Assembly: GCF_900446255.1 (NCBI RefSeq)
Contig: NZ_UIGI01000001.1
Coordinates: 4,490,763 to 4,554,762, forward strand
Source: Buttiauxella agrestis
GTDB taxonomy: Bacteria > Pseudomonadota > Gammaproteobacteria > Enterobacterales > Enterobacteriaceae
Direction: 5' to 3'
Length of the DNA stretch: 64,000 nt
Below, piece after piece: positions 19,767 through 61,664 of this stretch. Every line of letters begins with the position of its first letter. Positions within the stretch are counted from its first letter, which is position 1. The translations under genes and the position numbers were made by a program. The notes below the pieces were generated by a model. That model was not told the origin of the DNA. It saw only the letters and a program-made list of their open reading frames with translations, and did not search any database.

Positions 19767-20237
19767 TTATTGGATTAATATAATACCCCCCGCAACGGTA
19801 TAAGCCTCATAAGAGTGGCCAGCTTTTGGTATAAAAGAACGATAAGAAGTATGAAGCGTTTGAGTATACATAGTCTGGCTTGTTGTCCTGTAACCAACTT
19901 TAAGATATTGCCCTGGTTGTATATTATATTCCATATAATCCACACCTCGTAATGGAGAACCTTCAGGGAGAGGCTCAATATCATTTATTTTTTTAAATTT
20001 AGTTGATTTAAAACCTAAAATGTTCACACCAGGGGCAAGTGATCTTGAATCTATCTCCTGAAGACACCTTCCAACCTTCTTATAAAATTTCATTGAGAGA
20101 GGATCGGAGGTGTTAGCAACTCGTATTTTAGCTGCATCAGTACCAGAATAATCCTCCATAGAAGACAAACTAATAACACAACCACTTAGTGGAAGCACAA
20201 TACCTAATAAATATAATCCTTTAGTAAAGCTATACAT
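19767..20237 (-). CDS. Predicted lipoprotein of unknown function
   Basis: A 156-aa protein with a short leader ending in a lipobox (VLPLSGC), so it is probably lipidated at Cys20 and membrane anchored. The mature part has a beta-rich C-terminus (YMEYNIQPGQYLKVGYRTT, EAYTVAGGIILIQ). I do not recognise the family. Base composition is AT-rich compared with housekeeping genes here. It is the last gene of the CDI orphan array, in the same orientation, which allows but does not show a role as immunity protein. Confidence 0.65.
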   Translation of the reverse strand: MYSFTKGLYLLGIVLPLSGCVISLSSMEDYSGTDAAKIRVANTSDPLSMKFYKKVGRCLQEIDSRSLAPGVNILGFKSTKFKKINDIEPLPEGSPLRGVDYMEYNIQPGQYLKVGYRTTSQTMYTQTLHTSYRSFIPKAGHSYEAYTVAGGIILIQ

Positions 20238-20284
20238 TTACATCCCTTATTGAAAATAACATTAGGTGAATAAAAAAAATAACT

Positions 20285-20318
20285 ACAGTCCCTATCAATA
20301 TTGAGTCAGAGGGACTGT
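20285..20318. terminator. Hairpin between orphan CDI end and lipoprotein
   Basis: A 9-bp stem (ACAGTCCCT with AGGGACTGT) encloses 16 nt. On the minus strand the right arm is followed by GTAGTTATTTTTTTT, so it can act as a Rho-independent terminator for genes read leftward. Confidence 0.6.
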
Positions 20319-20346
20319 GAATCGGCTAGCGCTGGAATGGTCTGTC

Positions 20347-20376
20347 AAAAAGCACCCGGCGACTTAGCCGGGATTT
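20347..20376 (-). terminator. CDI-type terminator, copy 1
   Basis: A CCCGGC/GCCGGG hairpin (20355-20360 with 20367-20372) is followed on the minus strand by GTGCTTTTT. It lies just past the stop of the membrane-helix orphan end. Similar hairpins close the two other CDI modules. Confidence 0.7.
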
Positions 20377-20380
20377 GAGC

Positions 20381-20805
20381 TTACCTGTGACGATATAAAT
20401 TAAAGCGATATATCAGCCAAACACCAAAACCAGCGATACATCCTCCCCCAGCTCCCGCTCTTACGAATACCAATATATTATTTAAATCAATATCTAATAC
20501 ACCTGTATAAAAATATACGAAAGCTATAAAAACCATTTGCAGTATAAGGGCACATAAAGCGATGGCAATAATACTCGCTTCCTGCAGGCCCGCAGCCAGT
20601 ATACTCAACCCCACGAATTTCTGCTTTCCCACTTCCGTCAGGTCTTCATGCTTCACATTCGGATAACTGTCCAGCGCCGTCTGCGCCTTTATCACCAGTT
20701 GCGTACAGGCTGCACTGCTTTTATTACCCTGCGTACAGATATCACCGATTAACGCATCACGTGCTTTATCCGTGGCATTGATATCCGCCAGCTCCTGCTG
20801 GAGTA
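20381..20805 (-). pseudogene. Second orphan CdiA C-terminal fragment with membrane helices
   Basis: On the minus strand the frame runs from about 20805 (LLQQELADINATDKARDALI, then CTQGNKSSAACTQLVIKAQT) into a 104-aa open end starting at 20695. The first part copies the linker of the barnase orphan. After ALDSY the sequence changes completely to PNVKHEDLTEVGKQKF followed by two or three hydrophobic helices (about 27-63 and 78-98 of the short frame). No start or CdiA upstream part is present. It may be the remnant of a membrane-active toxin end, or of a membrane immunity protein fused by deletion. I cannot tell these apart. Confidence 0.6.
20664..20805. repeat. 142-bp direct repeat, copy in second orphan
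   Basis: This stretch matches 21862-22003 with a few substitutions over an equal length of 142 bp. It encodes the LLQQELADINATDKAR to ALDSY linker that precedes the variable end. Such shared blocks allow recombination between CDI modules. Confidence 0.85.
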
Positions 20806-20822
20806 GCCGCTGAGTGACAGAT

Positions 20823-20853
20823 AAAAAGATCCCGGCTCGATGGCCGGGATTCT
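20823..20853 (-). terminator. CDI-type terminator, copy 2
   Basis: An 8-bp stem ATCCCGGC/GCCGGGAT (20829-20836 with 20843-20850) is followed on the minus strand by CTTTTTAT, just past the barstar-like gene. It is nearly the same hairpin as those at 20347 and 23270. Confidence 0.75.
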
Positions 20854-20856
20854 TGA

Positions 20857-21153
20857 TTATTTCAGCACATAATCAAATTTATCATCCCAAGAAAATTTAA
20901 TATCTTGCTGTTTTGTACGCTCGAAAATTTGGATTATTTTCTCAAAACTCTCTCCGAGACGTTCTTTTGATAAACCTGAATTCAGCCAAGTTATTTTGAT
21001 TGGTCTTTCAATATCTGTACTAAGGCGATCCCATAAAGCATCTAGGTTCCGCCCATAATAAGGCCCAAAATCCAGCAACTCGGCCAGAACACGATGCACA
21101 TCAGATTCTGTGTATATATGCAGGCCATCTATAATTATATCGTTTTTACTCAT
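20857..21153 (-). CDS. cdiI: Barstar-like immunity protein (orphan CdiI)
   Basis: A 98-aa protein of the barstar family, which binds and blocks barnase-type RNases. The diagnostic helix FGPYYGRNLDALWDRLSTDI matches the barstar core (YYGxNLDALWD), including the acidic face that enters the RNase active site. The start at 21153 overlaps the toxin stop by 4 bp (ATGA), so the two are translationally coupled. A GTG at 21159 is less likely. It sits directly after the barnase-like orphan toxin and before a terminator. Confidence 0.9.
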   Translation of the reverse strand: MSKNDIIIDGLHIYTESDVHRVLAELLDFGPYYGRNLDALWDRLSTDIERPIKITWLNSGLSKERLGESFEKIIQIFERTKQQDIKFSWDDKFDYVLK

Positions 21154-23018
21154 TTCCACTTACCTATAGAGGTGGCTGTCTCATAGTGATCTGTAGTGAT
21201 ATAGAGCAGACCGTCATCTGAATACAGCAATCTTGTTCCTGCCTGATTGCTTCTTGACATAGTATTATCTAATCCAACGTCTGCTTCACGCCATACTCTT
21301 CCTGATGAGGATGGTAATAAATTATTTGAGTTTGCAAATATATCACCTCCTATCTGCTTCCCTGGCGATGTATTATTCAGCGCTTTGCCCGGCTTCCAAC
21401 CATTCTCGATAGCTTGAGCTTTATTGACATAACTTTCAGGAAGTTGCCCGGTATTTCGCAAGCTGTCCACAAGTCCATTTGCTGCCTCAGTCGTTTTTAA
21501 ATCCAGCTTCAGACCAGCATAGCTTGCCGCGTTGTGAGCTGTATTACCTGCTGCTTCAGTCTTACCAGCCCCTTTTGCCGCATCAGGCTTAACGCTGCCC
21601 TTACCACCCTGAGCCGCCTCATCACCCGCCACTTTGTAGCCCGCAATGATACTCACGATACCGTGCAACTGCATCGCATCGTCATAGGCTTTTTCAACTT
21701 CTGCCCATGATTTTGTGTTACCGGGGCTCTCCACTATCCCCTTAATCGCCGCATCACGCGTGATATTCCCCGCATCCAGCCCTTCCATAATAGCAGCGGC
21801 ATTCGCGTAATCTTTCGGGAAAATATCTTTGTACGACAGGTTATATGTCGCTGCACCACCGTAACTGTCCAGCGCCGTCTGCGCCTTTATCACCAGTTGC
21901 GTACAGGCCGCACTGCTCTTATTCCCCTGCGTACAGATATCACCGATTAACGCATCACGCGCTTTGTCCGTGGCATTAATATCCGCCAGTTCCTGCTGGA
22001 GTACCTGTCGTTCTTCCGGGTTCAGCTCACCGTTTGCTAACTGATGTTCTACCTGCTTTTTACGCTCGGCTTCTTTATGGTCCAGGTAGTTATAACGCAC
22101 CGAATCCAGTGCCGTCGCCGCACCCGACTGCGCACCGTTACTGCCCCCTGCCACACCGCCAACCGCTGCGCCACCCAGCGCCGCTGCCCACTGGGTTATC
22201 GCCGCTTTTTCATTCACACCCAGTTGAGTATTGCTGCTCAGGTAGTCATCAACAAATTGCCCCAGGGCCTCGCTGCCCATTCCCGCCAGGCCACCTGCCA
22301 GCGCATTGCCGCCGCCGAAGCTCGCCTGTATCGCACCTATCACTCCATGAATGGCCGCTTTCTCCGGACCATCAGCCGCCCAGCCCATCTCTGCACCCAG
22401 GTCTCCGGCATACTTGTTCGCCATCTGCCCGAACACCGCTGCCAGCTCCTGCTGCTCCTCGATTTTTTCCTTATCGAAGATTTTATCGATGTGACCATTG
22501 GCGTTGTCCGTATCGCGGCTCAGGTCCGCCACATCCTGCTGCTGGTTTTCCTTGTCACGAAGGGTGATGTTGCCTGCTGCAATGGCTGACTGGGTGGTGC
22601 CCGAGGCATCATCGCTGGCTTCGATGCCAATCAGTGGCACGCCACCCCCGCTGAACATCTGCCCGCCATGGCTGTCCTGACCTGTCGCTCCGCCCGCGCT
22701 GATGCCCTTGCTGCTGGCACTGTATTCAGCGTGGTTGTCGAGGCTGCTCCAGCCCAGCGTCCCAGTGTCGAGGCTGTTTTTGCTGGCTTCCGCCGTGCTG
22801 GCAATCACCCCGCCATCCAGCTGCGTGTGTTTACCGACGGTAATATCGAACCCTTTGTCCCCGGCAAATAACCCGCTTTGCTCGCCGACGCTGGCGTATT
22901 CACTGTCAGTTTTGCTCTGGTTGATAACGCCGGGATATATTTCTTGCGCGATGAACTCGCCGATGGTGGCACCCGATGCGCCTGACAATGCGCTATTGTC
23001 TAGCATCTGAGCGACCAC
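21150..23018 (-). CDS. Orphan CdiA C-terminal module ending in a barnase-like RNase
   Basis: A 622-codon frame with no proper start (first codon GTG at 23018; homology to CdiA starts further up near 23057, with a stop just beyond). Order: a short pretoxin piece (ALSGASGATIGEFIAQEI), a block identical or nearly so to main CdiA (about 31-300), a charged linker, and an RNase domain (about 512-622). The RNase matches barnase strongly (LPESYVNKAQAIENGW, PGKQIGGDIFAN, SGRVWREADV, TTDHYETATSI). It keeps the catalytic Glu578, Arg596 and His611. It cannot be secreted as it stands because it lacks the TPS domain and signal. It should become active if recombined onto cdiA. Confidence 0.85.
   Translation of the reverse strand: MVAQMLDNSALSGASGATIGEFIAQEIYPGVINQSKTDSEYASVGEQSGLFAGDKGFDITVGKHTQLDGGVIASTAEASKNSLDTGTLGWSSLDNHAEYSASSKGISAGGATGQDSHGGQMFSGGGVPLIGIEASDDASGTTQSAIAAGNITLRDKENQQQDVADLSRDTDNANGHIDKIFDKEKIEEQQELAAVFGQMANKYAGDLGAEMGWAADGPEKAAIHGVIGAIQASFGGGNALAGGLAGMGSEALGQFVDDYLSSNTQLGVNEKAAITQWAAALGGAAVGGVAGGSNGAQSGAATALDSVRYNYLDHKEAERKKQVEHQLANGELNPEERQVLQQELADINATDKARDALIGDICTQGNKSSAACTQLVIKAQTALDSYGGAATYNLSYKDIFPKDYANAAAIMEGLDAGNITRDAAIKGIVESPGNTKSWAEVEKAYDDAMQLHGIVSIIAGYKVAGDEAAQGGKGSVKPDAAKGAGKTEAAGNTAHNAASYAGLKLDLKTTEAANGLVDSLRNTGQLPESYVNKAQAIENGWKPGKALNNTSPGKQIGGDIFANSNNLLPSSSGRVWREADVGLDNTMSRSNQAGTRLLYSDDGLLYITTDHYETATSIGKWK
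21862..22003. repeat. 142-bp direct repeat, copy in first orphan
   Basis: Partner of 20664-20805. Both start at TAACTGTCCAGCGCCG and end at CTGGAGTA, with scattered mismatches between. Confidence 0.85.
22117..22926. repeat. 810-bp direct repeat, orphan copy
   Basis: This block and 24780-25589 in main cdiA have the same length and near-identical sequence. It encodes INQSKTDSEYASVGEQSG through GGSNGAQSGAA. The flanks differ sharply on both sides. It is the likely crossover block for exchanging the toxin end. Confidence 0.93.
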
Positions 23019-23093
23019 CGCACCGAGAGCCGCGTGGGTAATCAGATTGGTTTCTCGATTAACTAGTCGTTTTCTATAATGTTGTTAAAGAAC

Positions 23094-23243
23094 ATGATGC
23101 TGTTTCGCCACGAAGACCGCAGAACCCATATGACCACCTATTACAACCGCCATCCCAGCCTGCACCTGAAGGGCGACTGGCTAAAAGAGGCGGGGTTTGG
23201 GACGGATACACCGGTTATCGTGACCGTGGAGCGGGGCAACTAG
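23094..23243 (+). pseudogene. Truncated symE-like toxin gene
   Basis: A 49-codon frame on the plus strand, opposite to the CDI genes, contains YYNRHPSLHLKGDWLKEAGF followed by VIVTVERGN and a stop. This is the core of SymE (type I toxin family with an AbrB-like fold), which continues well beyond this point in complete members, so the copy is cut short. It fills the gap between cdiI and the barnase orphan. symE genes are often found at Rhs and CDI loci in enterobacteria. Confidence 0.7.
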
Positions 23244-23269
23244 TGATCCGGCCTGCTGAATGACAGGTG

Positions 23270-23298
23270 AAAAGATCCCGGCTCAAGGGCCGGGCTGT
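23270..23298 (-). terminator. CDI-type terminator, copy 3
   Basis: A CCCGGC/GCCGGG hairpin (23277-23282 with 23289-23294) is followed on the minus strand by GATCTTTTC, just past cdiI of the main locus. Confidence 0.7.
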
Positions 23299-23306
23299 GA
23301 AACCAC

Positions 23307-23759
23307 TTATATAGAAACATCTTCACTTGAACCATTCATAAAATAGATGGACAACTTATTTCCATTTAATTTCACATGATCTATATAATCAATAAATTCA
23401 AAGTGATACCTCTCATGTAGGTTATTTAACGACAGAACAATAACCTCAATCTCACATACGATAAAAATATATGCGTCTGTTACTTCAAAGTTGTAGAAAA
23501 AAGATGAAGATAATAAAGTTCTCATCAACTCATTGTTTTTTATACTAAAAAATGCAACCAATTGATCGCAACCAATAGCAATTATATCATTTACTATTAT
23601 AGCAACGGGTTGTATCTCACTTTGCACTGAAAGTTTTAATATAACTCTATTTTTGTAAGAGAGATGATAGTAATGCCTCGCACATTCTTCATCATGGAAC
23701 GCGATAGGCATTTGGCTATGATAAAAATCATGCTTAGTTATAGGGATAATTTTTATCAT
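23307..23759 (-). CDS. cdiI: CdiI immunity protein of the main CDI locus
   Basis: A 150-aa protein rich in beta-strand-forming residues and AT-rich in base composition. I do not recognise a family. The call rests on context: its start overlaps the cdiA stop by 4 bp (ATGA) and it is followed by a terminator, as is usual for cdiI. It should bind the CdiA end encoded just upstream and protect siblings. No signal peptide is visible; some hydrophobic runs (AYIFIVCEIEVIVLSL) are more like buried strands than membrane helices. Confidence 0.75.
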   Translation of the reverse strand: MIKIIPITKHDFYHSQMPIAFHDEECARHYYHLSYKNRVILKLSVQSEIQPVAIIVNDIIAIGCDQLVAFFSIKNNELMRTLLSSSFFYNFEVTDAYIFIVCEIEVIVLSLNNLHERYHFEFIDYIDHVKLNGNKLSIYFMNGSSEDVSI

Positions 23760-26700
23760 TTGTTTTTACTCGCTATTTTTGGAATCAATGTCGTGATTTT
23801 TGGCGTTACATTTAAGTCACCTCCAGGATAAAAGAAACTAACATTAATAGCTCCCTTATCTGAAACAGTAATATTTTTGGTTATTGTAGTTCCAAAATTA
23901 TTAGATTTCTGAGAGACGATAACACCATCACTAGCTGCTTTATTAAATACATCTACTAACGATTGCTCGTTATTAATCCCTAACGTATTAAGATCTTTCA
24001 AGTTTTGAGCCGACCTTTCAATGTTATGAGGGTTGCCCTCAGTAACTTTACCAAAGAAGTAATCAAATTTATTAGGATCGACATTATAAGCTTGAGGTGC
24101 GATCTCTTTTGAAACACTACTCGCCTCAGCCGCCCCCGCTCTCCCCGCATTCCAGACTCCGGCTCCCGCCGCACTCAGTTGTGACAGACCATAGATCCCT
24201 TCTGAGTAAGCCGGTGGTACACCCGCCTCTTCCAGCAGCCATGCTCCGCTGGTCTGCTGACCGATACCCGTCACAAAGGCATTTGAACCAGCCCAGGCCA
24301 TATCTATCCCGCTGGCTGCCAGATACGTCCCTGCCGCACAACCGATACCGGAAACACACAGCGCCCCACCGCCCAGCGCCTGCAATTCCCCACCTGCTGT
24401 CTGCACCAGACCGCCAATACGCGTACCCACACCATAGCGGGACAGCGTATCTGCAACCTGGTCACTGGCCGAATACCCGAACATCGGCAGACTGCCTGTG
24501 CCATAACTGCCCATCGCATAAATCGTCTGGTTACTGCCCTGGGAAACCAGCAATGCCCGCTCACTGGTATACGCCTCGCTGTTACCCAGTTGCTCTAGGG
24601 CCAGCGCTTTGCTGTAAGCCTCCGTACCTTCTTTGAACTCTGCCGAGCACTGGACCAGCGCACAGGCCGCCGCTTTCAGCCGGGTTTCCTTGTCTTTGTC
24701 CCCACCGGCCAGCGCCTGGATACGTGCCACCTCATCTGGGTGTAACTGGCGGTTATAGCGTTCTGCATCAAGCGACGCAGCCGCACCCGACTGCGCACCG
24801 TTACTGCCCCCCGTCACACCACCAACTGCTGCGCCACCCAGCGCCGCTGCCCACTGGGTTATCGCCGCTTTTTCATTCACACCCAGTTGAGTATTGCTGC
24901 TCAGGTAGTCATCAACAAATTGCCCCAGAGCCTCGCTGCCCATTCCCGCCAGGCCACCTGCCAGCGCATTGCCACCGCCGAAGCTCGCCTGTATCGCACC
25001 TATCACTCCATGAATGGCCGCTTTCTCCGGACCATCAGCCGCCCAGCCCATCTCTGCACCCAGGTCACCGGCATACTGGTTCGCCATCTGCCCGAACACC
25101 GCTGCCAGCTCCTGCTGCTCCTCGATTTTTTCCTTATCGAAGATTTTATCGATGTGACCATTGGCGTTGTCCGTATCACGGCTCAGGTCCGCCACATCCT
25201 GCTGCTGGTTTTCCTTGTCACGAAGGGTGATGTTGCCTGCTGCAATGGCTGACTGAGTGGTGCCCGAGGCATCATCGCTGGCTTCGATGCCAATCAGTGG
25301 CACGCCCCCCCCGCTGAACATCTGCCCGCCATGGCTGTCCTGACCTGTCGCTCCGCCCGCGCTGATGCCCTTGCTGCTGGCACTGTATTCAGCGTGGTTG
25401 TCGAGGCTGCTCCAGCCCAGCGTCCCGGTGTCGAGGCTGTTTTTGCTGGCTTCCGCCGTGCTGGCAATCACCCCGCCATCCAGCTGCGTGTGTTTACCGA
25501 CGGTAATATCGAACCCTTTGTCCCCGGCAAATAACCCGCTTTGCTCGCCGACGCTGGCGTATTCACTGTCAGTTTTGCTCTGGTTGATATTCAGGCTGGC
25601 CGAGCCGGTCATCGAACCAAAGGTGAAACTGGCTCCGCCACTCACATCTTTCTGCTTACTGTGGTACTCGTCCGTATCCTGCAGACTGCTGATGGTTAAA
25701 TCACGCCCCACATCGGCAGTGATTTTGTCGCCCAGAGCCTGCGCACCGGAGATTATCGTGTCCCGCCCGCTGCTCATGCTCAGCTCATTGCTGGCATTCA
25801 CCCGGCTGTTGACATATTCGGTGGTTTTACCGTCTGCGGTACCTTTCGACTGAAAACCACTGGCTGACACACCTATCCCGGTTTCCTGTCCCAGCGAGAC
25901 ATGTACCCCGGCATTCCAGCCACTGCTGTTATTTTTGCTGGTCTGCTCGCTGTTGTTGGTCGCAGCGTCCAGGATCAGGTCATTCTGCGCAACCAGCGTG
26001 ACGTTATGACCCGTTACCCCACTGCCGCTGATGTGCAGGTCGCCGCTGGTGCCTTTCCCGCCGGTCGCCACCATGGTGACATCGCCACCCGCCGTAAGCG
26101 TACTGCCCCGCACCTGATTTTGTGTCGATTCAGACTCGAACTGACTTTTGCTTGAGCCGACGCTGACTTCCACTTTCACTACGTTCATATCGCCCTGCGC
26201 AGCCCCCCCTGCTATTGAGGAAGCACCAGAGCCTGCAGCCCACGCATTTTCTGCTGTTTTAACTGCATACAACGCTTTAAGGCGATCATCGCTGACCTCC
26301 TCACCACGTTTGAAGGTATCGTTAGCAGCCATCGCGGCACCGGTCACAGCCGACGAAACCGACACCGTCACCCCACTCTGTTTTTGTTCATAACGTTCTT
26401 TGCGGCGCTGCTGGTCATTGCCCGGATCGACAATAATCTCGCCTGCAGCCACATTAAGATTTTTACCGGCCACCACATCCGCACCACCGATATGTGCTGT
26501 GTTGCCAGCAATGATGCTGACGTTACCGCCTGTGGAGCCAATAGTGCTGACACTCTGGCTCTGGGTTGTTCCGTCCTCGTTCAACTCATGCAGGGAGGAT
26601 TTGCTGCCAATAGTGACACCCAACCCGCCCGTCCCCATCAGACCACTGGTTTTCTTCTCCTTGAAACGGTATGTCGACTGTTCATCTGTGGCTGCCAGGA

Positions 26701-29700
26701 TGTTGACATCATTTCCTGCCTGGAGAGTCACCGAGCCATCACCCACGACACCAGAGCCTTTCACGTTCAGGTCGTTACCCGCTGAGAGCGAGACGTTATT
26801 TCCGCTCAGTGCACTGCCTTTTTCGTAGGTGGCGTAATCTTCCTCAATGGTGTGCGTGGTGGTTTTGTTCAGGAACCCTTTTTTGGTTTTGGTCTCTTCT
26901 TCAAAGTGGTAATCGCTTTCAGTGGCGGTTTCGAGATGAATATCGCGACCTGCGCCGATGCCGATATCACCGCTGGCGATGACCTGTGCGGCCTGGCTGT
27001 TGACGTCACGCCCGGCAACGATAGTGGTGTTGCCGCCGCTGGCGATTTCTGTGCTGTCCTGGCGTACCGATTCGTTGATTTCGACCTTTTTCTTCGCGTG
27101 ATAACTGTCGCCTGCGGTGGTTTCTTCCGCCATCAGGTTGACGTCGCGCCCGGCCTGCATCGCCACATCGCCTTCTGCGGCAAGCCCTGCCGCCTGGCTG
27201 TTGATGTCCTGGCCCGCCGCCAGCGCCAGGTCCCCACCTGCCGTTATCGTGGTGCGCGCATTGTCTGTGCTGTGGGTTTCGCTGTTACCTTTGCTGCTCG
27301 ACTCGCTGGTCTGCCCGGCATTCAGGTTCAGATCGTTCCCTGCAATCAACGTGGCGTTGTCGCCCGCACTGGCTGAACTGGCCTCGATGGTAATGTCATT
27401 ACCCGCCTGCACGCCCAGATTGCCGCCAGCAGAAATGGTGCTGCCTTGCTGCGTGACGGATTCGCTGCTGGTCGCGTCTTTGCGCCAGAAGCCGGACTGA
27501 CTTTCGCTGTCCGTCATCTGGTTGGCGGTGACGTTGATGTTGCCGTCGGCCAGCATCAGTAAATCGCCACCAGCGGTGACATTGGCACCGGTAATGTTGA
27601 TGTCTTTCCCAGCACTCAGGCTCATGCCGTCCTGCGCGGTGATACCCGCCACCGGGCCGCTGACGGTCTCGCTGAAACTCACTGATTCACCGCGTTTTCC
27701 CGTACCGCCCGCCTGCCACTGCTCGGTCTGCGTGACGTTATTAATGCTGCCGCCTAGGCTTTCGAGCTGGACGGTTTTGCCGGAAATAGTGGAACCGATG
27801 TTGTTGATATCGCCCAGCGCCCCCAGTTGCAGCGCACCGCCCGCCTGCATCAATCCAGCGTTCAGGTTGTTGATACTGTTCTGGCTGTCGAGGCTCAGGC
27901 CGTTTTGGGCGGTGATAGTGCTGCCACTATTGGTGATGTTGCCGCCCGCAAGCTGGACATTGTTACCGGAAATCACGCTACCACTGTTTACCGTGACGTC
28001 TTTTGGCGACAGGTAAACTTTCGGCACCATGACCGTCTGGCCATTCACCTGAGTGGCTTCCCACCACAGAATGCTGGTGTCGAGCGCGGCAATCTGGTTT
28101 GCCGTCAGAGCCACCCCAAAGGCTAACCCCAGCGACTGTTGCGCGGTGGCTGCGTTATCCATCAGGTACTGCATCTGTTCCAGGTCAGATCCCAGGCCAT
28201 TGATGTAGCGGCTGCCGGTCTGGTTAAGCATAAAGTTGCTGACGTAGCGCGTGTCGAAGGCTGCATCACCGAGGAAACGGTAGTCGTATTCCGGGTGCAG
28301 GTTCAGCCGTTCGAGGAAGTAAGACGAACCGAGGAATTTATTCTGATCGGTGTAGTTGGCGTTAGTTTCACGCGGCGCAACACCGGGTTGTGTTCCCATC
28401 AGCGCATACAGGTCGCCAAACAGGCTTTGATCCAGCTCGCCGAGGCCATCTAGTTTCGGGTTAGTGGTGATCAGATATGGGCTGTTCGGGTCGGTTGAGG
28501 TGACAAAGTAGCCGTTATTGCCGGATGGCAACGGGTACAGGCTGGTATCAACGCTGCTTCCTGTCTGTCCGTTCAGGCTGCTGCCACCGCTGATTTGTGC
28601 CACCGCATCAGCCAGATTGTCGCGCCATTGCGGCGAGTTGATTTCTGCAATGTCAGCGCTGGCAAGGTCTTGCTGGGTGATACCGCCATCGATTGTCTGC
28701 TGGCTGAGGGTGTTTAGCGTCGGAACAGTGATGGTGTTGCTGATACCGCCCGTATGCGCCGTAGTGGTGGTGTTGCTGATGTCGCTGGTGAAGTTGGCTG
28801 TGACGTTGCCGCCAGCCTGGATTACGGCGCGGTATGCGGCTGAATCATCACTAAATTCCGTATGCTGATCACCAGTGAATTCATAGCGGATGTAGCGTTT
28901 TCTTTCATTTACAGCTCGCCCCAAACGAGCGTAAATCTCATCAAGAGTTTCTTTATTGAAAACCCTGGTTTCCATAACTTCAGGGGAAAGATACTCAAAA
29001 TCATCTTGTGTTAAATGACTGGCAGGAACTCCTAAATATTGGTAAGTGCGGTATTCTGTCTCCGTTCCCGAAACCCATGACTGATTACTTAGAGTGTCCC
29101 CTTGCAAAAATAGATCACGGCTTGCAAGGATATGACTGGCGCTATTATCTAGACTCCTCGCGGAAATTGTTAAATCACGCCCTGAACTGATTCTCCCTGC
29201 TGAGCCATCACTACTTACGCTAATAGTGTTCGATGCAACAGGAATATCCAGAAATTGGTGGTCAGGAGTTGCCATTCCGTAGTAGTAAACATCATGGTGA
29301 AGCGTGTCATTACCTTTTCCATGCCCCTCCAACCAAGTAACTGAATAAGTGTAAAACTGATATTCGCCATATTTCAGTTCACTGAAAGGAACATCAGCTG
29401 TGGTCTCCGTCAGCCAGCTATAATCATTAAAATAATTATGCTGCTCACTTGTTACCACCAACCCTTCCCGCTCATTCAATAAATGCCCGGTCTTAATCGT
29501 AATATCGCCATTGACCGTCTCGATATTCCCAGAGGTATTCACCACCTCGGCATTCGCATTGCCCGCCATATCGCGCTGCATCCACAGGCTATTACCTGCC
29601 AGAATATCGCCACGGGTATTTTTGATACTGTTTGCCAGCAAATACATATTGTTGCCCGCATACAGCAGCGCGGTATTCAAAATACTGCCTGCTGCATTGA

Positions 29701-32700
29701 GAGTCAGCGAACTGGCGGTGCCAACAAAACCGTCCACCGTGATATTGCCACGGCTGTTTAGCGCCACGTCGCCGCCTGCCTGCAATGTGCCTGCGGTGTT
29801 CATCGCAATCTGGCTGCCGGAAAGTGTGCTGCTGCCGCTGCCGGTGGTGATTTGCCCGTTATTGGTCAGCGCCTCACCCGCCGTCAGATTCACCGCCTGG
29901 CCCTGCATCACGTTCTGGTTAGTGATGCCGCCGTTACTGGTGATATCGAGGATGTTGCCCGCAGCAATCACGTTTTTACCGGTAAATGCGTTGGTGAGTT
30001 TGAGTGTCAGATTGCCCAGAGCCACCACCTGGCCGAGGGCATCAAAACCGGTGCTGTTCAGCACTAAATTACCGCCGCTGAACAGTTTCCCCGCGGCCAT
30101 ATGGTTGACCTGGCCGGCATTAACGGTCAGCGAGGTGGTGCCAAACAGCGTGCCGCTATTCGTGATCTGCTGATAATTCACGCCCAGATTGCCGCCCTGC
30201 GCGGTGCCGGTGTTGCTGAAGGAGTTACCGGTTAACGTCGCGGAATCAGCCAGTAATGATCCGCTGTTGGTCAGCGTGCTGGCGTTAAGTAGCAGTGTTG
30301 ACGCCTGGAGCCAGTTGTTATTAGTAAAATCTGCGGAGTTCAGCGTGAACTCGCCGCCGGAAAGCAGTTTGCCGCCGTTGCGTGCCGAGGTTGCGGCATC
30401 AATGCGTGTGGTGCTTCCCCCCTGAATCAGCCCGTCGTTCACAAGCGCAGGCGACGTGATATTCAGTGTGTTCTGGCTGAGGATAATCCCCGCTGCGTTG
30501 TTGGTCAGATTGCCGCTGAGCGCAAGGCTATCATTCGCCTGAATGCGCCCGCTGTTGTTAACCATTGCGCTGTTGAGCTGGAGATCCGCGCCCTGAATCT
30601 GCCCGGCATTTTCCACGGAGGCGGCACTGAGATTTAACGCCCCGCCGGTCAGCAGCGTTTTGCCCTGTTGCTGGCTGAACGCGCCAGTTAGCGCCACGTT
30701 CAGCCCGTCCACCCCGCTGATGTCGCCGTTGTTATTCAGCGAACGGGCGTTTATTGACAGGTTTTTAGCAATCCACTGGCCGTTATTGGTCAAATCCAGC
30801 GCCTGAATGGCCGCGCTGCCATTGGCGGTGATTTTGCTGTTGGCAGTTGATGCCAGATTGCCGGAAAGTTGCAACGTCAACGCATCAGCACTTTGAATCG
30901 CCCCGCTGTTACTGAGTTGCTGGGCATTAAGCCCGATCTGTTGCCCCTGCCAGGTGCCGCTGTTAGTGATGTCGCCGCCGCGAATGTTCAGCACCCCGCC
31001 ACTCAATAGCTGCCCGCCGTTAAGCAGCGTCTGCACATCGAGGTTCAGCGCAGTCAGGCCGATGATCACCGCCTGGTTCTCCACCTGCGCCTGGTTCAGT
31101 GCCAGGGTATTTCCCTGAACCGCGCCGCTGTTGGTGAACTGATTTCCGGCGAGCGTCATATCGCCCGCACTGAGCAGCGAGCCACGGTTATCGAGCGTTT
31201 GTGCGCGAAGCGTGGTGTTCCCCTGGCTGAGTACATCACCCTGGTTTGTCAGCGTCTGCGCAACATTCACATTCAGGCCACCAATGCCCAGCAGCGATCC
31301 GCTGTTCTGCCAGTCAGTCGCGGTGACGCTGGCGTTTTGCCCCTGAATGATGCCGAAGGTGTTGAGTTGCCCGGCATTGAGCATCAGATTTCCCCCGCTC
31401 AATACCCGGCTGGCGTTGCTCGTATAGAGATCATCCGCCTGAATGATCAGGGAGGAATTGCCCTGCAACAGCCCGGAATTGCTCAACATTTTGCTCTGGA
31501 TGGCGAGTGAAGCACCCGCCATGCTTCCGGCGTTGGCAACACGATCGCTGTGAATATCAAGATGTCCGGCGCCCAGCAGCAGGCCGTTTGCCTGGTTGTC
31601 GATTTGCGTATTATTGAGGGCCAGCGCCACCGCGTTAATTTCGCCGCTGTTGGTGAGCTGATTGCCATTGAGCGTCAACCCGGCGTCGCTGGTGATAAGC
31701 CCGGCATTGGTCAGTGTCGGCACCGTTAGCACAAAATCCTGCATGCTGTAGACGCTGCCGCCGAACTGGTTATCGAGGCGTTCCGCAGACAGGTTTAATG
31801 CTCTGTCGCCCTGGAGCAGACCGGTATTGACGATCGTCTGGCTATTGAGGCTAAGTTCCGGCGCCACCAGGGAGCCGCTGTTGTTGACGTTGCCCGCATT
31901 AATGTTGATGGCAGCGGCATTCGTTTTACCGCCATGTGCCAGGTTATCTGCGCGGATAGCGAGTTTGCCACGAGCAGCTTGTGTGCCGTTAAGCGTGGCG
32001 TCTGAGGCGTTGAGCGTCAGCTGTCCGTCACTTTGCAACTGCGCGTTTTGTTGGCTGGTGAGCCGCTGTGCCTGCACCGTAAGATCGCCGTGGGCGATGA
32101 TTTCACCATCCACACTGGCATCATCCGCATTCAGGGCGATATTGCCCTGGCTGGTGCTCAACGAGCCGCTTGCAGTGGTCAGGGAGTTAGCCTTCACCGT
32201 CAGCGCATTTTTGCCCGACAGCGTGCCATTTTGTTGAATATTCCCCGCGATAACCGTGAGTGCGTCATCGCTCAGGATTTGCCCGCTGGCACTGTTATTC
32301 AGTGAGTTAGCCGCGTTGATACTGGCGCGGCCTTTGGCGCTCAGCGTGCCATTTTGTTCGAGAGTTTGGGTGGTGAGATCCAGCTCGCCGCCGCTCAGCA
32401 TCTGGCCGCCGTTGGTCAGGGAATTGGCGTTTAACGCCATGTTATTCTGGCTTTGCACGGTGCCGGTGTTATTCAGCGTGCTGGCGTTAAGTTGTGCAGT
32501 ACCATTGGCGGTAATCGTGCCGCGGTTGGTCAACGCGCCGCTGTTTAAGGCGGCATTGTTCCCGGCAACCAGCAGACCCTGGTTATCCGTCGACCCGGCG
32601 ACTTCAGCCGTGATATCACGCGCCGCGTCAGCGCGGCTGCTACCATCCTGAGTGAAATCATGGGCGTTGAGACTGAGGTTGTTTCCGGCGGTCAACGTCG

Positions 32701-33754
32701 CGCTGGATAAACTCAGTTTGCCATCACTGTTCAGGACAATGTTGTTGTCGCTGACAAAGGTGCCGCTGTTAAGCGCAATTTCCTGCCCGCTAACATTGAT
32801 ATTACCGCTGGCTTTATGCTCACCATTTAACGCAACACTTTCACCTTTTGCCGTCAGGCTGCCGCTGGCGAGACTGTTTTTGACCGTCAGTTTGCCGTTA
32901 ACATCCAGGGTGATATCCCCCTGGCGTGCAGTCAGGTTGCCAAGGTTTACCCCCACACCTTTGTCGCTGGAAACCAGGCGAATACGGTTGGCGTACATGC
33001 CGCCAAGCGCGCCGGTGTCCACCGCAACGACCGGAGCCGCACCGTCCCCGGCAATCGCCGTCGCGCGCCCATCAGCAGTCACACGATTTGCCCCGGCAAT
33101 CACCGTCAAATCTTTGGCATGAATGTCGGCGTTAATTTCGGTGGCACGGGAAATTATCGACAACGCATCTGACTGGCTGGCGTTCAGCCCTTGCCCTTCA
33201 ACGGTGATAGAACCCTTCGTCACATCAAGCGATTGCAGATTGCCGCTGGCATCGAACACCGGTTTGCCGGTGGTCAGCGTCGCGTTTGGGGTATTGATAA
33301 ACCCGCACCCATTGCAGGTGATGCCGTACGGGTTGGCGACCATCACGTTCGCCGCTTTGCCCGCCACTTCGGTGTAACCCTGGAGCTGCGAGCGGTTAGC
33401 ACCCGTCACTTCGTTGATGATGCCGCGCGCTTCCTGACCTGCTTTCAGATTGGGGTTGTTCTGGATAAGCCCGCCGAGCTGTGTCTGATTCAACTGCCCG
33501 GTGGCGTTATTGAGGATTAAGCCCTCAGGGCCCACGTTGTAATCCTGGTACTGGTTATGGGAAATCCCCGCCCCGTTGGGCGTGGCGATGTTTACCACCG
33601 GCACCCCGTTCCCGGCTTTATCCATTTGTGTCGCGTTATTCGCCGGGGTCGTGGCAGCAAACGCAGGGAAAACAGGCTGACCCGCCAGCAACGCGCAAAT
33701 CAGGTAACTCAGTGTGCGCCTTGCAAAACACACAGGTTTTTGATGATTATCCAT
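23756..33754 (-). CDS. cdiA: Contact-dependent growth inhibition toxin CdiA
   Basis: A 3332-aa secreted filament. An extended signal peptide (1-33, ending VFPAFA) is followed by the TPS domain (about 34-300; NPYGITCNGCGF). Then come FHA-1 repeats (about 300-1400), a receptor-binding/YP-like central region (about 1420-1930), FHA-2 repeats (about 1935-2720), a pretoxin block (2721-2991) and a variable end. The last about 110 residues (from PNKFDYFFGKVTEGNPHN) are the presumed toxin, whose family I do not recognise. The classical VENN motif is absent; the divergence point follows SLDAERYN. CdiB, encoded 12 bp upstream, exports it. The frame is intact throughout. Confidence 0.93.
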   Translation of the reverse strand: MDNHQKPVCFARRTLSYLICALLAGQPVFPAFAATTPANNATQMDKAGNGVPVVNIATPNGAGISHNQYQDYNVGPEGLILNNATGQLNQTQLGGLIQNNPNLKAGQEARGIINEVTGANRSQLQGYTEVAGKAANVMVANPYGITCNGCGFINTPNATLTTGKPVFDASGNLQSLDVTKGSITVEGQGLNASQSDALSIISRATEINADIHAKDLTVIAGANRVTADGRATAIAGDGAAPVVAVDTGALGGMYANRIRLVSSDKGVGVNLGNLTARQGDITLDVNGKLTVKNSLASGSLTAKGESVALNGEHKASGNINVSGQEIALNSGTFVSDNNIVLNSDGKLSLSSATLTAGNNLSLNAHDFTQDGSSRADAARDITAEVAGSTDNQGLLVAGNNAALNSGALTNRGTITANGTAQLNASTLNNTGTVQSQNNMALNANSLTNGGQMLSGGELDLTTQTLEQNGTLSAKGRASINAANSLNNSASGQILSDDALTVIAGNIQQNGTLSGKNALTVKANSLTTASGSLSTSQGNIALNADDASVDGEIIAHGDLTVQAQRLTSQQNAQLQSDGQLTLNASDATLNGTQAARGKLAIRADNLAHGGKTNAAAININAGNVNNSGSLVAPELSLNSQTIVNTGLLQGDRALNLSAERLDNQFGGSVYSMQDFVLTVPTLTNAGLITSDAGLTLNGNQLTNSGEINAVALALNNTQIDNQANGLLLGAGHLDIHSDRVANAGSMAGASLAIQSKMLSNSGLLQGNSSLIIQADDLYTSNASRVLSGGNLMLNAGQLNTFGIIQGQNASVTATDWQNSGSLLGIGGLNVNVAQTLTNQGDVLSQGNTTLRAQTLDNRGSLLSAGDMTLAGNQFTNSGAVQGNTLALNQAQVENQAVIIGLTALNLDVQTLLNGGQLLSGGVLNIRGGDITNSGTWQGQQIGLNAQQLSNSGAIQSADALTLQLSGNLASTANSKITANGSAAIQALDLTNNGQWIAKNLSINARSLNNNGDISGVDGLNVALTGAFSQQQGKTLLTGGALNLSAASVENAGQIQGADLQLNSAMVNNSGRIQANDSLALSGNLTNNAAGIILSQNTLNITSPALVNDGLIQGGSTTRIDAATSARNGGKLLSGGEFTLNSADFTNNNWLQASTLLLNASTLTNSGSLLADSATLTGNSFSNTGTAQGGNLGVNYQQITNSGTLFGTTSLTVNAGQVNHMAAGKLFSGGNLVLNSTGFDALGQVVALGNLTLKLTNAFTGKNVIAAGNILDITSNGGITNQNVMQGQAVNLTAGEALTNNGQITTGSGSSTLSGSQIAMNTAGTLQAGGDVALNSRGNITVDGFVGTASSLTLNAAGSILNTALLYAGNNMYLLANSIKNTRGDILAGNSLWMQRDMAGNANAEVVNTSGNIETVNGDITIKTGHLLNEREGLVVTSEQHNYFNDYSWLTETTADVPFSELKYGEYQFYTYSVTWLEGHGKGNDTLHHDVYYYGMATPDHQFLDIPVASNTISVSSDGSAGRISSGRDLTISARSLDNSASHILASRDLFLQGDTLSNQSWVSGTETEYRTYQYLGVPASHLTQDDFEYLSPEVMETRVFNKETLDEIYARLGRAVNERKRYIRYEFTGDQHTEFSDDSAAYRAVIQAGGNVTANFTSDISNTTTTAHTGGISNTITVPTLNTLSQQTIDGGITQQDLASADIAEINSPQWRDNLADAVAQISGGSSLNGQTGSSVDTSLYPLPSGNNGYFVTSTDPNSPYLITTNPKLDGLGELDQSLFGDLYALMGTQPGVAPRETNANYTDQNKFLGSSYFLERLNLHPEYDYRFLGDAAFDTRYVSNFMLNQTGSRYINGLGSDLEQMQYLMDNAATAQQSLGLAFGVALTANQIAALDTSILWWEATQVNGQTVMVPKVYLSPKDVTVNSGSVISGNNVQLAGGNITNSGSTITAQNGLSLDSQNSINNLNAGLMQAGGALQLGALGDINNIGSTISGKTVQLESLGGSINNVTQTEQWQAGGTGKRGESVSFSETVSGPVAGITAQDGMSLSAGKDINITGANVTAGGDLLMLADGNINVTANQMTDSESQSGFWRKDATSSESVTQQGSTISAGGNLGVQAGNDITIEASSASAGDNATLIAGNDLNLNAGQTSESSSKGNSETHSTDNARTTITAGGDLALAAGQDINSQAAGLAAEGDVAMQAGRDVNLMAEETTAGDSYHAKKKVEINESVRQDSTEIASGGNTTIVAGRDVNSQAAQVIASGDIGIGAGRDIHLETATESDYHFEEETKTKKGFLNKTTTHTIEEDYATYEKGSALSGNNVSLSAGNDLNVKGSGVVGDGSVTLQAGNDVNILAATDEQSTYRFKEKKTSGLMGTGGLGVTIGSKSSLHELNEDGTTQSQSVSTIGSTGGNVSIIAGNTAHIGGADVVAGKNLNVAAGEIIVDPGNDQQRRKERYEQKQSGVTVSVSSAVTGAAMAANDTFKRGEEVSDDRLKALYAVKTAENAWAAGSGASSIAGGAAQGDMNVVKVEVSVGSSKSQFESESTQNQVRGSTLTAGGDVTMVATGGKGTSGDLHISGSGVTGHNVTLVAQNDLILDAATNNSEQTSKNNSSGWNAGVHVSLGQETGIGVSASGFQSKGTADGKTTEYVNSRVNASNELSMSSGRDTIISGAQALGDKITADVGRDLTISSLQDTDEYHSKQKDVSGGASFTFGSMTGSASLNINQSKTDSEYASVGEQSGLFAGDKGFDITVGKHTQLDGGVIASTAEASKNSLDTGTLGWSSLDNHAEYSASSKGISAGGATGQDSHGGQMFSGGGVPLIGIEASDDASGTTQSAIAAGNITLRDKENQQQDVADLSRDTDNANGHIDKIFDKEKIEEQQELAAVFGQMANQYAGDLGAEMGWAADGPEKAAIHGVIGAIQASFGGGNALAGGLAGMGSEALGQFVDDYLSSNTQLGVNEKAAITQWAAALGGAAVGGVTGGSNGAQSGAAASLDAERYNRQLHPDEVARIQALAGGDKDKETRLKAAACALVQCSAEFKEGTEAYSKALALEQLGNSEAYTSERALLVSQGSNQTIYAMGSYGTGSLPMFGYSASDQVADTLSRYGVGTRIGGLVQTAGGELQALGGGALCVSGIGCAAGTYLAASGIDMAWAGSNAFVTGIGQQTSGAWLLEEAGVPPAYSEGIYGLSQLSAAGAGVWNAGRAGAAEASSVSKEIAPQAYNVDPNKFDYFFGKVTEGNPHNIERSAQNLKDLNTLGINNEQSLVDVFNKAASDGVIVSQKSNNFGTTITKNITVSDKGAINVSFFYPGGDLNVTPKITTLIPKIASKNK
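24780..25589. repeat. 810-bp direct repeat, copy inside cdiA
   Basis: Partner of 22117-22926. In cdiA it encodes residues about 2721-2991, immediately before the variable end. Differences are few, for example AAASLDAERYN here against AATALDSVRYN at the outer edge where the two diverge. Confidence 0.93.
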
Positions 33755-33766
33755 AATCGTTTTCCC

Positions 33767-35452
33767 TTAAATCACAAACGCGATGCGGTAATAAATGCTG
33801 ACGTGGTCAGGTGCGAGCCAGTCCGGATATTGCAACGGTGTTCCCACCGTGAACTGGCTGGAGTAATAACGGTTAGCGCTTGATAACCCTACCGCTGCGC
33901 CCCACAACGTGCCGGAGGCCCAGGGGTCTTTGTTGTCTTTTTGCAGCCAGCCGCCATCAAGAGCCACGACGCTGCTGACCTGGCCGATAAACGGCAAAGT
34001 GAATAGCGTGTAGTTGAGTTCGTTGCGCAGGTAGCCGCCGTTATCGCCGGATAAATACTGCTCTTTAAAACCGCGCACCGAGCTTTCGCCGCCGATTGTC
34101 AGGCGTTCGCTGCCGTAAAGTCGGTCTGGCGACCATTGCCCGTAAACGCTGGTCAGCCACCATAAATCGTTGGTGACTGGAAGCTGGAAGCTGCCATTCG
34201 CGCTCCATTTTTTGAACTCGGCTTTCGGCATGTTGTCGTTTTTGCCGTTGTCGTTTTCCGCACCTAGCCAGGGCACGCCATGGCTGAAGGTCGGGTTAAA
34301 GGTCGCCACGCCACCGAAGATTTTTTGCGTATGGTTCAGGCCAAACAGCAGACTGGAAAGTTTGCGGCTGCTGCTGTCGAGCTTTGCGTCGTTAAGGTAG
34401 TTATTGCTGATTTGGTGGGTCAGGCCGATGGAGGCGCCGGTTTTAATATCGCCATTGCGAAATAGCACGTGCGAAGCGGTAAAACGGTGTGTCTGGCTGT
34501 CGCCCGTTGACGCCCAGCCGAAGCCATTGTTATCAATGGTGCTGAGGTAATTGCTCCAGCTGTAGCTGTAATCAAACAGGCTGTATCCGTAAGGGATACT
34601 CAGCCCGGCCTGCACACTTTGGGCATCATGAGAGGAAGAAAAGTCACTGCTGCGCGCACCGCTGACAAACCATTTATCCGCCAGCCCCAGCAGGTTATTG
34701 CCCGTCAGTGACCCGTTGAGTTGTCCGGTGCCGGTACTTTTCTGGCCGCTGTTATCGAACCCCAGTGAAACACTGAGCGGAAACTCCGGCGTGGCGGTGA
34801 GGTTGACGATGGAATAGCCCGGTTTTTCACTGGGCAGAATTTCAATCTGCACCGGATTACTGCGTAAGCGGTTGATTTGCTCCATGCCCTGTTCAATGTC
34901 ACGCAGGTTGAGAATTTCACCTTCCAGGCCCGGAAACGCCATGGTTAACTGTCTTGATGAAGCGCCTTCGAGATGTATTTTCTCAAGACGCCCTTCCAGC
35001 ACCGCAATCTTTAATTCCCCCTGAGATAAATCTTGTTCGGTGAGAAAAGCGCGGCTGGTTATATAACCCTGCTGAATATACCAATCAGATATTTCTCGCG
35101 TTAATTGCGTGATTTTATCCATGCCAATGCATTGGCCGATATAAGGTTGCTTAAATTCTTTTTGTTTTTGACTGGAAAGCAGCGTGGCATTATTAATATT
35201 GATGGTGTGAATAGTAAAACAAGGACCAGAACTTGCCACAGGCTTTGGCTGGGCAGGTTGCACAAGAGGAGCGCTGCGCTGTAATTCATCTCGTTGCTGT
35301 TGATTTTGTTGTAATAAATCTTGTTGACCCTGGCGAATTAAATCGCGATCGGCAGGGCTGAGTGGTGCCGCAAATAAGGGAGTAACAGATAGCGCTATAC
35401 AACACACCATAGCGTAGAGGGTGATATTCTTTTTATTACGCACGTATTTCAT
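33767..35452 (-). CDS. cdiB: CdiB, two-partner secretion outer-membrane transporter
   Basis: An about 561-aa Omp85/ShlB-type transporter that exports CdiA across the outer membrane. A signal peptide (ending VTPLFA) is followed by a plug helix rich in Q (RQGQQDLLQQNQQQRDELQ), two POTRA domains (about 60-210, with GYITSRAFLTEQDLSQGELK) and a C-terminal 16-strand barrel. The barrel keeps the conserved SSVRGFKEQYLSGDNGGYLR segment. The start is set at ATG 35452, which gives a compact signal peptide; the frame continues to 35494. No strong ribosome site marks either. First gene of the CDI operon. Confidence 0.92.
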   Translation of the reverse strand: MKYVRNKKNITLYAMVCCIALSVTPLFAAPLSPADRDLIRQGQQDLLQQNQQQRDELQRSAPLVQPAQPKPVASSGPCFTIHTININNATLLSSQKQKEFKQPYIGQCIGMDKITQLTREISDWYIQQGYITSRAFLTEQDLSQGELKIAVLEGRLEKIHLEGASSRQLTMAFPGLEGEILNLRDIEQGMEQINRLRSNPVQIEILPSEKPGYSIVNLTATPEFPLSVSLGFDNSGQKSTGTGQLNGSLTGNNLLGLADKWFVSGARSSDFSSSHDAQSVQAGLSIPYGYSLFDYSYSWSNYLSTIDNNGFGWASTGDSQTHRFTASHVLFRNGDIKTGASIGLTHQISNNYLNDAKLDSSSRKLSSLLFGLNHTQKIFGGVATFNPTFSHGVPWLGAENDNGKNDNMPKAEFKKWSANGSFQLPVTNDLWWLTSVYGQWSPDRLYGSERLTIGGESSVRGFKEQYLSGDNGGYLRNELNYTLFTLPFIGQVSSVVALDGGWLQKDNKDPWASGTLWGAAVGLSSANRYYSSQFTVGTPLQYPDWLAPDHVSIYYRIAFVI

Positions 35453-35607
35453 CCATGAATATAAGTGCCAGTGCGAAAATACACACACTGACATAGAATT
35501 TAATTGAAACTTATAATTGGGTGAATATGACCATATCCTTTGATCATGTTCAACCTATTATGTTAACTCTGAGGCACGCTGCGCAATAATGATTATTTAA
35601 GCCACGC

Positions 35608-57108: not shown

Positions 57109-57479
57109 AACAATTTCCCTTCATTGAATGAATGGAGATTTGCCCAAAAGGAATTTCAGGCGTTTCGAGTATACACAACAAGTAATAGCGACAGACCGCG
57201 ACGGGGAATAAGGAGAGAGCTTTAAGATAAATGGAAATATAACAATATTGGCAATATTGACATTTCATTTAGATGATGAAAAACAGACAGTTAAAATATA
57301 ATCAAGAGGAAATACAATCTAATTAATCCGAAAATAAACCCGTAGAATTATCAGGTTATAGGTGTTTTTAGGATTAACCTCACGCTGGGGAATTAAGCTA
57401 TTTACGGGGCAAGGGGAATTATCTTATTTAAATAAATAAGCCGACCATAAGATCGGCTTATATTTAATGTCTATTACTC
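57109..57479. other. Upstream region of yjbEFGH
   Basis: This AT-rich region holds the yjbE promoter and the pgi terminator. A loose RcsB-box-like stretch (TAGGATTAACCTCA, 57369-57382; about 10 of 14 positions) is noted but is too weak to call. No gene is seen. Confidence 0.45.
57437..57460 (-). terminator. Terminator of pgi
   Basis: The hairpin AAGCCGA-N-C/G-N-TCGGCTT is flanked by A-rich and T-rich runs on both sides and lies beyond the ERIC that follows pgi. On the minus strand it reads into TTATTTATTT. Confidence 0.65.
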
Positions 57480-61295: not shown

Positions 61296-61330
61296 TATAC
61301 GGCTACTTGCTCACTTGTGAGTAAGCCAGA

Positions 61331-61515
61331 AGAGGCGCGTCGCCCAGGTATCGTGTTTGAGGAGCCAATCCGCAGACGACACAGGAGGGGGAGCGACGCC
61401 GAGGTAGTGCATGTATGGCAGCATGTATTATCGGCCACGGGGGCTGAATCCCTTGGGCTGTCACCAGGAGCATTTCATAATCGAATGCTCCAAATTATTC
61501 CCGAATTCGTAAAGA
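61331..61515 (+). ncRNA. Lysine riboswitch (L box)
   Basis: The conserved pieces occur in order: AGAGGCGCG at 61331, CCCAGGTA, GAGGAGCCAATCC, AGGGGGAGCGACGCCGAGG and GGGGGCTGAATCCCTTGGG, with closing CTGTCACC near 61459-61466. This is the lysine-binding aptamer known from enterobacterial lysC leaders; the expression platform lies in the about 150 nt before the start. Lysine binding should lower LysC production. The 3' limit is approximate. Confidence 0.92.
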
Positions 61516-61664
61516 GATTGGGGAGACAAGGTGGGGCGCTTCTGGGTGTATCGTAGTTCAAGTTTACTTTTCTACGTCTGCCCCGTATCCCGCTCTTCCC
61601 TTGTGCCAAGGTTGATTGACTTTTTTGCCATAGCGATGGCTCCCTGACACGAGGCTGTACCGTA

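Follow-up and report, generated by a model that had tools for sequence, protein, structure and literature searches.

The closest described counterparts of the locus reported here are the orphan cdiA-CT/cdiI arrays of Poole et al. 2011 (PMC3150448), in which fragmentary cdiA ends and immunity genes lie on the same strand, downstream of the cdiBAI operon of a contact-dependent growth inhibition (CDI) system. That account includes fragments without the VENN motif, homology to the upstream cdiA and relatives of the orphan C-terminal ends (CdiA-CT) fused to full-length CdiA elsewhere; it also reports expression of an orphan cdiI in E. coli EC93 and, for Y. pestis Microtus, the fusion of an orphan through the loss of 3,557 bp. 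Fossil and reserve models of orphan modules are set out in PMC4927057, displacement and illegitimate insertion helped by homology in cdiA have been proposed for Acinetobacter CDI (PMC6336857), and all three papers discuss duplication. We analyzed a 64,000-nt stretch of Buttiauxella agrestis DNA (the window, to whose coordinates all positions refer) that holds, as judged from the encoded domains, a CDI system (cdiBAI, type Vb secretion) followed by an orphan barnase/barstar module.

The arrangement is one already described in other bacteria, namely the orphan array of Poole et al., with which it shares the fragmentary cdiA end and immunity gene downstream of cdiBAI, the homology to the upstream cdiA and the relatives on full-length CdiA elsewhere. 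It differs in that the pretoxin is of the DUF6862 type rather than VENN and that the orphan pair is barnase/barstar. Pretoxin motifs other than VENN are allowed in a 2022 review (PMC9086364). A second counterpart is the CDI cluster of Proteus mirabilis BL95 (PMC11278526), where one of the two orphans has 830 bp in common with cdiA (95.2% identity), ends have been displaced downstream, and a single symE within the cluster is encoded on the opposite strand; unlike the window locus, it lies on an integrative and conjugative element and encodes other toxins. Because the missing VENN motif is the one point in which the barnase/barstar module departs from the description of orphan modules, the locus is a further example of a known arrangement. 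It leaves the picture of orphan-module origin unchanged, and what it offers is a clear case of a displaced toxin end accompanied by a long repeat ready for recombination.

A CDI operon and a barnase/barstar orphan module

All open frames of the region, namely cdiB, cdiA, cdiI1, the orphan cdiA end, barstar, a membrane open reading frame and a lipoprotein gene, are on the minus strand. The features on which the argument depends are as follows.

33767..35494, minus strand: cdiB, outer-membrane two-partner secretion transporter (Pfam ShlB, E 7e-96; POTRA_2, POTRA_3)
23756..33754, minus strand: cdiA, 3332 amino acids, full length, non-VENN pretoxin (TPS, E 4e-50; Fil_haemagg_2, E 8e-60)
24780..25589, minus strand: stretch in full-length cdiA matching the orphan copy (810-bp repeat)
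23756..24100, minus strand: CdiA-CT1 (CT1), predicted displayed toxin of the CdiA Kp342 family (phmmer to 6cp9 and a four-sequence profile)
23307..23759, minus strand: cdiI1, immunity to CT1 by position and relative (4-nt overlap with cdiA; L157 relative directly behind the CT1 relative)
22117..22926, minus strand: copy, within the orphan, of cdiA codons 2722-2992 (810 bp, 98.5% identical to 24780-25589)
21858..22076, minus strand: DUF6862 pretoxin of the orphan (PF21726, E 2e-11)
21150..21551, minus strand: orphan CdiA-CT, barnase-type RNase (barnase PDB chains, best E 3.8e-24; PF00545)
20857..21159, minus strand: orphan immunity gene of the barstar type that overlaps the stop codon of the toxin gene (PF01337, E 1.3e-19; barstar PDB chains, best E 1.8e-12)

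The Pfam matches place a CdiB with ShlB and POTRA domains next to a CdiA with a TPS domain and haemagglutinin repeats, and the CdiA ends in a toxin of the 6cp9 family followed by an immunity gene, a pairing repeated in the L157 relatives. Differing toxin ends in three congeneric genomes (G009, G010, G002) count toward a variable C-terminus. The open frames and domains bear out the intact cdiB-cdiA-cdiI operon of an initial annotation made from the letters of the window, as the PDB and PF01337 matches do its barnase-like CdiA end with a barstar-like gene on the same strand. Its reading of orphan cdiA-CT/cdiI pairs holds for these two genes.

The orphan frame (21150-23018, minus strand; a 622-amino-acid query) is a cdiA 3' fragment downstream of cdiBAI. 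Its pretoxin start, again non-VENN, is also that of a full-length CdiA of 3845 amino acids in G009, and no VENN motif occurs in either the full-length cdiA or the orphan. PF00545 (Ribonuclease) scores 23.0 bits on the orphan end, just below the 24-bit cut-off. Barnase Lys27, Glu73, Arg87 and His102 and barstar Asp35 and Asp39, which we take to be the key residues under their usual numbers, are kept in the PDB alignments, and the pair is accordingly assigned on sequence to the barnase RNase and barstar inhibitor families, with catalytic and contact residues present. Adjacent toxin and inhibitor genes with the same domains occur in Bacillus amyloliquefaciens, whereas the window barnase forms part of a CdiA fragment, and its host is Gram-negative. 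Candidate GTG and ATG start codons are present in the orphan, and no Shine-Dalgarno-like run was seen before them by eye.

According to the 2022 review, characterized CdiA-CT structures match every BECR subfamily except barnase (PMC9086364), and the window adds a barnase/barstar CDI pair from this sole missing subfamily. A barstar-type CdiI has been predicted in Pseudomonas brassicacearum (PMC4725963, 2016), the one paper found to bring barnase, CdiA-CT and barstar together.

A long repeat and a variable site

The orphan copy and its counterpart in cdiA are identical at 798 of 810 positions (12 mismatches, 98.5%), which is more than chance. In a three-way comparison with G009, the two copies agree with each other against G009 at 34 positions, while six differences are found in the orphan alone, five in cdiA alone and one position differs in all three; the copies therefore parted, or were last homogenized, after the split from G009. 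Codon changes confined to the orphan (three silent, two not) and to the main copy (five silent, none not) lean to relaxation, in counts too few to tell. The two copies are in the same reading phase. At the other edge of the orphan just a few bases match, by eye. Further direct repeats of 142 and 40 bp lie within the locus.

We compared the site in 12 genomes of the genus, 11 of which (all except G002) carry the dynamin-like neighbor gene. In the nearest genome compared, G001, both flanks are present (97.3% and 94.3%) and are separated by 66 bp, where the window has 15,977 bp; the two flanks also lie close together, with no cdi locus, in G003, G004, G005 and G008. A cdiB of 82-84% identity adjoins the dynamin-like gene in three of the 11 (G006, G009 and G010). 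Other toxin ends and other orphans (the latter recognized by eye) occupy the same site in G009 and G010, and the G006 contig ends before the toxin end. G007, G011 and G012 have the dynamin-like gene, but no match to the second flank turned up next to it. The order and content of the locus are not fixed among the relatives seen: a uniform order with decayed orphans, which the initial annotation had said would tell against it, is not what the five genomes without the locus and the other ends of G009 and G010 present.

The full-length cdiA of G009, at the same site, has the pretoxin start of the window orphan and not that of the window cdiA. BLAST homology to G009 extends past the repeat by 43 bp on the orphan side, compared with 13 bp on the cdiA side. 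This shared pretoxin start fits CT1, the main end of the window, as the newcomer.

G002 has a cdi array as well, with four displaced ends and an integrase-like fragment (by eye) near tRNA-Sec, and its region is probably an island. Behind that array (L060, 4325-5427) a tyrosine-recombinase-like fragment and a toxin-antitoxin-like pair, seen by eye, stand next to tRNA-Sec.

Origin and use of the orphan module

Displacement, whereby the insertion of newer ends into cdiA pushed older ones downstream and left barnase/barstar as an orphan, is in our judgment very probably how the module arose. One toxin would be displayed, CT1, by homology a Kp342-family RNase guarded by cdiI1. The barnase RNase and barstar would be an older end, kept downstream without a secretion part of its own. 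The incoming DNA most likely paired with cdiA over the 810-bp stretch at one end and was joined at the opposite end with little or no homology, a step that we infer; this would be the homology-facilitated insertion proposed for Acinetobacter CDI (PMC6336857). The likely use of the orphan would be immunity through barstar, with the loading of barnase onto CdiA by recombination as a possibility, and everything past barstar would be debris. Of the origins considered, displacement has the best support, and among the uses retained immunity is the likeliest. Several points weigh on the other side. No series of strains shows the insertion happening. The G009 end diverges from the orphan soon after the common pretoxin start, so that barnase itself is not shown to be a former resident end. 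The difference between 43 and 13 bp is slight and varies with the points at which BLAST terminates an alignment. Two stop codons interrupt the cdiB match in G009, and the G009 system may thus itself be damaged. Finally, a repeat of this kind would also be expected from tandem duplication within the locus.

Such a duplication, followed by partial loss and without incoming DNA, would account for the direct repeats of all three lengths, and duplication is discussed in the literature on these arrays (PMC3150448, PMC4927057, PMC6336857). However, CT1 and the barnase end belong to different families and are richer in A+T (33% and 44% G+C, respectively) than the shared part of cdiA (56-61%), so the ends themselves probably came from outside, and we regard duplication alone as unlikely. 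That the orphan is a decaying fossil without function, barstar included, is doubtful, although we give it more room than duplication: its neighbors are broken (a membrane immunity gene without toxin, a frame-shifted lipoprotein gene and a symE relic) and promoter-like sites in the region are at chance level (11 found, 9.9 expected), but the barnase and barstar frames are open with their key residues kept, and an orphan cdiI is expressed in E. coli EC93 (PMC3150448).

The most active role for the orphan would be a reserve arsenal, with barnase kept for redeployment and a RecA crossover in the repeat fusing it to full-length CdiA, either once the locus has been duplicated or at the cost of cdiI1. 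The repeat would make such homologous recombination possible, its in-phase copies predicting a deletion of 2,663 bp; the key residues, whose roles we assume, are kept in the orphan end and in barstar, and the Y. pestis Microtus deletion (PMC3150448) is a precedent for fusion. Yet the simple crossover removes the immunity gene cdiI1, a terminator-like hairpin precedes the orphan and no ribosome site was seen by eye, the sparse codon changes lean to relaxation, and none of the 12 congeners searched shows a fused barnase form. Redeployment therefore seems to us a quite unlikely reason for the retention of barnase, less likely still than an origin by duplication. The switchable weapon of the initial annotation is accordingly left with a repeat that allows switching and a crossover that would delete cdiI1, which makes switching no more than possible; its retained immunities agree with the kept residues of barstar and less well with the hairpin between cdiI1 and the orphan. 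We retain displacement as the most probable origin and immunity as the probable use. Overall, the observation in that annotation is partly confirmed and its interpretation partly supported; its gene calls were largely right and its toxin count was wrong.

The displayed toxin and its immunity gene

With the last 139 residues of CdiA as query, phmmer against the PDB matched the CdiA toxin of Klebsiella pneumoniae 342 (6cp9, E 1.5e-5), and a profile built from the window, L118, L120 and L122 strengthened this match to E 4.7e-35, with E 6e-8 to 6cp8. The review lists 6CP9 among BECR-fold toxins that act on tRNA-Ile, with an active site of K157, Y160, H170, R252 and T255 (PMC9086364). By homology, CT1 would have the BECR fold and tRNase activity: it belongs to the same family, and a Lys, a Tyr and a His align at the spacing of K157, Y160 and H170, an assignment that we made by spacing. 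Unlike its relatives L120 and L122, the window CT1 lacks 11 alignment columns near the C-terminus, and a Lys near its end stands where L120 and L122 have Arg (by eye in the alignment).

CT1 matches occur in six of 392 genomes of the family. The best relative, in G343, is a 73-74% end on a frame of 3065 amino acids with a 54% cdiI directly behind it, and this order in a relative supports CT1 and cdiI1 as a toxin/immunity pair. For cdiI1 there was no PDB match at E 1 or better, and the Pfam scan returned nothing for it, for the membrane frame or for the lipoprotein.

Barnase ends elsewhere

The barnase end is matched in 114 of the 392 family genomes, at 123 places. We examined the 11 closest; the remaining 112 are mostly frames of 145-225 amino acids at 33-51% identity, with a few short pieces of higher identity. 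One of the 11, L095, is a full-length CdiA ending in barnase (73% identity, 3192 amino acids), with cdiB before it and barstar after it. The initial annotation had proposed looking among related strains for barnase on full-length cdiA; the genus yielded none, with no match beyond residue 320 of the orphan query in the 12 congeners, and L095 supplies the fused form from outside it. Barnase ends also occur on VgrG-like proteins (L096 by Pfam, L097 by similar sequence seen by eye), on an Rhs protein (L104, by Pfam) and on short CdiA-type fragments (L098, L099, L100, L102 and L103, with VENN-type sequence by eye or FHA2 matches); L101 is cut by a contig end and L105 is interrupted. Polymorphic toxins are known for placing one toxin/immunity pair on several delivery proteins, and the same barnase/barstar pair is thus carried by several of them.

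Orphan residues 32-462 are matched in L005, L006 and L007, in frames not necessarily of full length. The orphan protein had no match in a phage collection, and the barnase/barstar DNA none in E. coli genomes at 'distant' sensitivity. A search of a plasmid collection returned five records, the best two being chromosome-sized Proteus records.

Remnants around the orphan module

By predicted content, the locus holds one displayed toxin, one intact spare toxin/immunity pair and two broken leftovers. The features beside the spare pair are as follows.

22926..23048, minus strand: VENN-type pretoxin, first half, ending at YPGV (up to 73% identity to VENN pretoxins)
20664..20805, minus strand: 142 bp of the orphan pretoxin present a second time (95% identical to 21862-22003)
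20570..20665, minus strand: VENN-type pretoxin, second half, starting at YPNV (up to 74% identity)
20381..20572, minus strand: membrane immunity gene, N-terminally cut, toxin gone (87% identity in G288 and 84% in G207, where the corresponding gene follows a CdiA end)
19767..20237, minus strand: lipoprotein gene, frame-shifted near its 3' end (156 amino acids versus 165-200 in relatives, by eye)

The membrane open reading frame (20381-20695, minus strand) had been described as a further CdiA end fragment with membrane helices. No toxin lies in it, and a search of the frame for a toxin-encoding cdiA-CT gave just pretoxin scraps and the cut immunity gene. In G288 and G207 the membrane protein has a gene of its own immediately after a CdiA end, and its N-terminus, counted from the first Met, extends some 14 residues further; the window therefore has a cut immunity gene without its toxin. 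The protein is matched in 13 of the 392 genomes. A third toxin within this frame was considered and rejected, as relatives have the same segment as a gene directly behind the CdiA end. In place of the 'at least three different toxin ends' claimed earlier, we find two toxins and a toxin-less, N-terminally cut immunity remnant.

In 60 loci, each VENN half gave 26 matches, and 18 adjacent in-frame pairs all overlap by the identical 12 nt at YPGV, which makes the two window scraps neighboring halves of one VENN pretoxin type. They may be the halves of a single VENN module split by the barnase unit, as their adjacency elsewhere would suggest; against this, they resemble different subtypes, the first being closest to L160 (73%) and the second to L154 and L158 (74%).

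The lipoprotein gene named in the initial annotation is present and, compared with its relatives, not intact. Relatives occur in 22 of the 392 genomes. Ten of the 22 have a same-strand CdiA repeat region no more than 10 kb upstream (L132-L136, L142, L146, L148, L151 and L152), L143 has a CT1-like end alone and 11 have neither, counts that carry no background rate. No Pfam family scored above cut-off in the window copy or in three relatives scanned. By description alone, the gene can be compared with BcpO of Burkholderia, a predicted lipoprotein in some CDI operons (PMC9086364). An OmpX/Ail-like gene was seen by eye near the lipoprotein in at least L135, L151 and L152.

Sequences at the module boundaries

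23277..23294, minus strand: terminator-like hairpin after cdiI1, a 40-bp repeat of the hairpin after barstar
20829..20850, minus strand: terminator-like hairpin after barstar (terminator scan)
23100..23255, plus strand: relic of symE that converges on cdiI1 (found by tblastn at 23106-23237, E 5e-14; Rfam isrA is scored on the minus strand)

A terminator-like hairpin also follows the membrane frame, and the region has seven terminator-like sites against 3.8 expected.

The symE query was the 109-amino-acid E. coli symE, which itself faces an rhs gene. At E <=0.01, 15 of 66 sequences gave 17 matches, L150 being without a CDI match. In the remaining 14 loci, the window among them, 16 of 16 matches lie opposite the toxin-gene strand; five of these matches are weak, with E between 0.003 and 0.009, and the loci are related and not independent counts. 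symE is on the opposite strand beside two E. coli rhs genes as well. Genes or relics of symE face toxin/immunity modules in the window, L007, L054, L056, L060, L095, L100-L102, L136, L155, L159, L162 and L163; directly behind barstar, L100 and L101 each have a stretch matching query residues 1-74. The excerpts available of PMC11278526 and PMC3942780 state no general pattern for symE inside CDI clusters. Toxin modules could be imagined to move as units, with pretoxin homology on one side and a convergent immunity gene-terminator-symE arrangement on the other, symE being a second recombination arm common to CDI and Rhs loci and the CDI-linked lipoprotein a further passenger; we consider this a long shot, and the least probable of the proposals made here.

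Rfam isrA matches the window at 23100-23227 (minus strand) with 66.4 bits, above the family cut-off, with the outer pairs marked non-standard. All three isrA matches seen are antisense to symE (the window match, L100:4151-4273 and L165:5949-6077, each on the minus strand), and eight further symE loci gave no isrA match at gathering score. An isrA small RNA between the modules was therefore set aside as probably just symE sequence, and the isrA family may really describe symE sequence; a title-level look at the literature for isrA together with symE gave nothing useful. Rfam isrN matches lie near two CDI or orphan arrays (L102:1374-1516, 151 bits; L007:5737-5879, 137 bits). Elsewhere in the window, a lysine riboswitch (61322-61549) and the STnc430 small RNA (57304-57470) are matched, both ordinary for enterobacteria.

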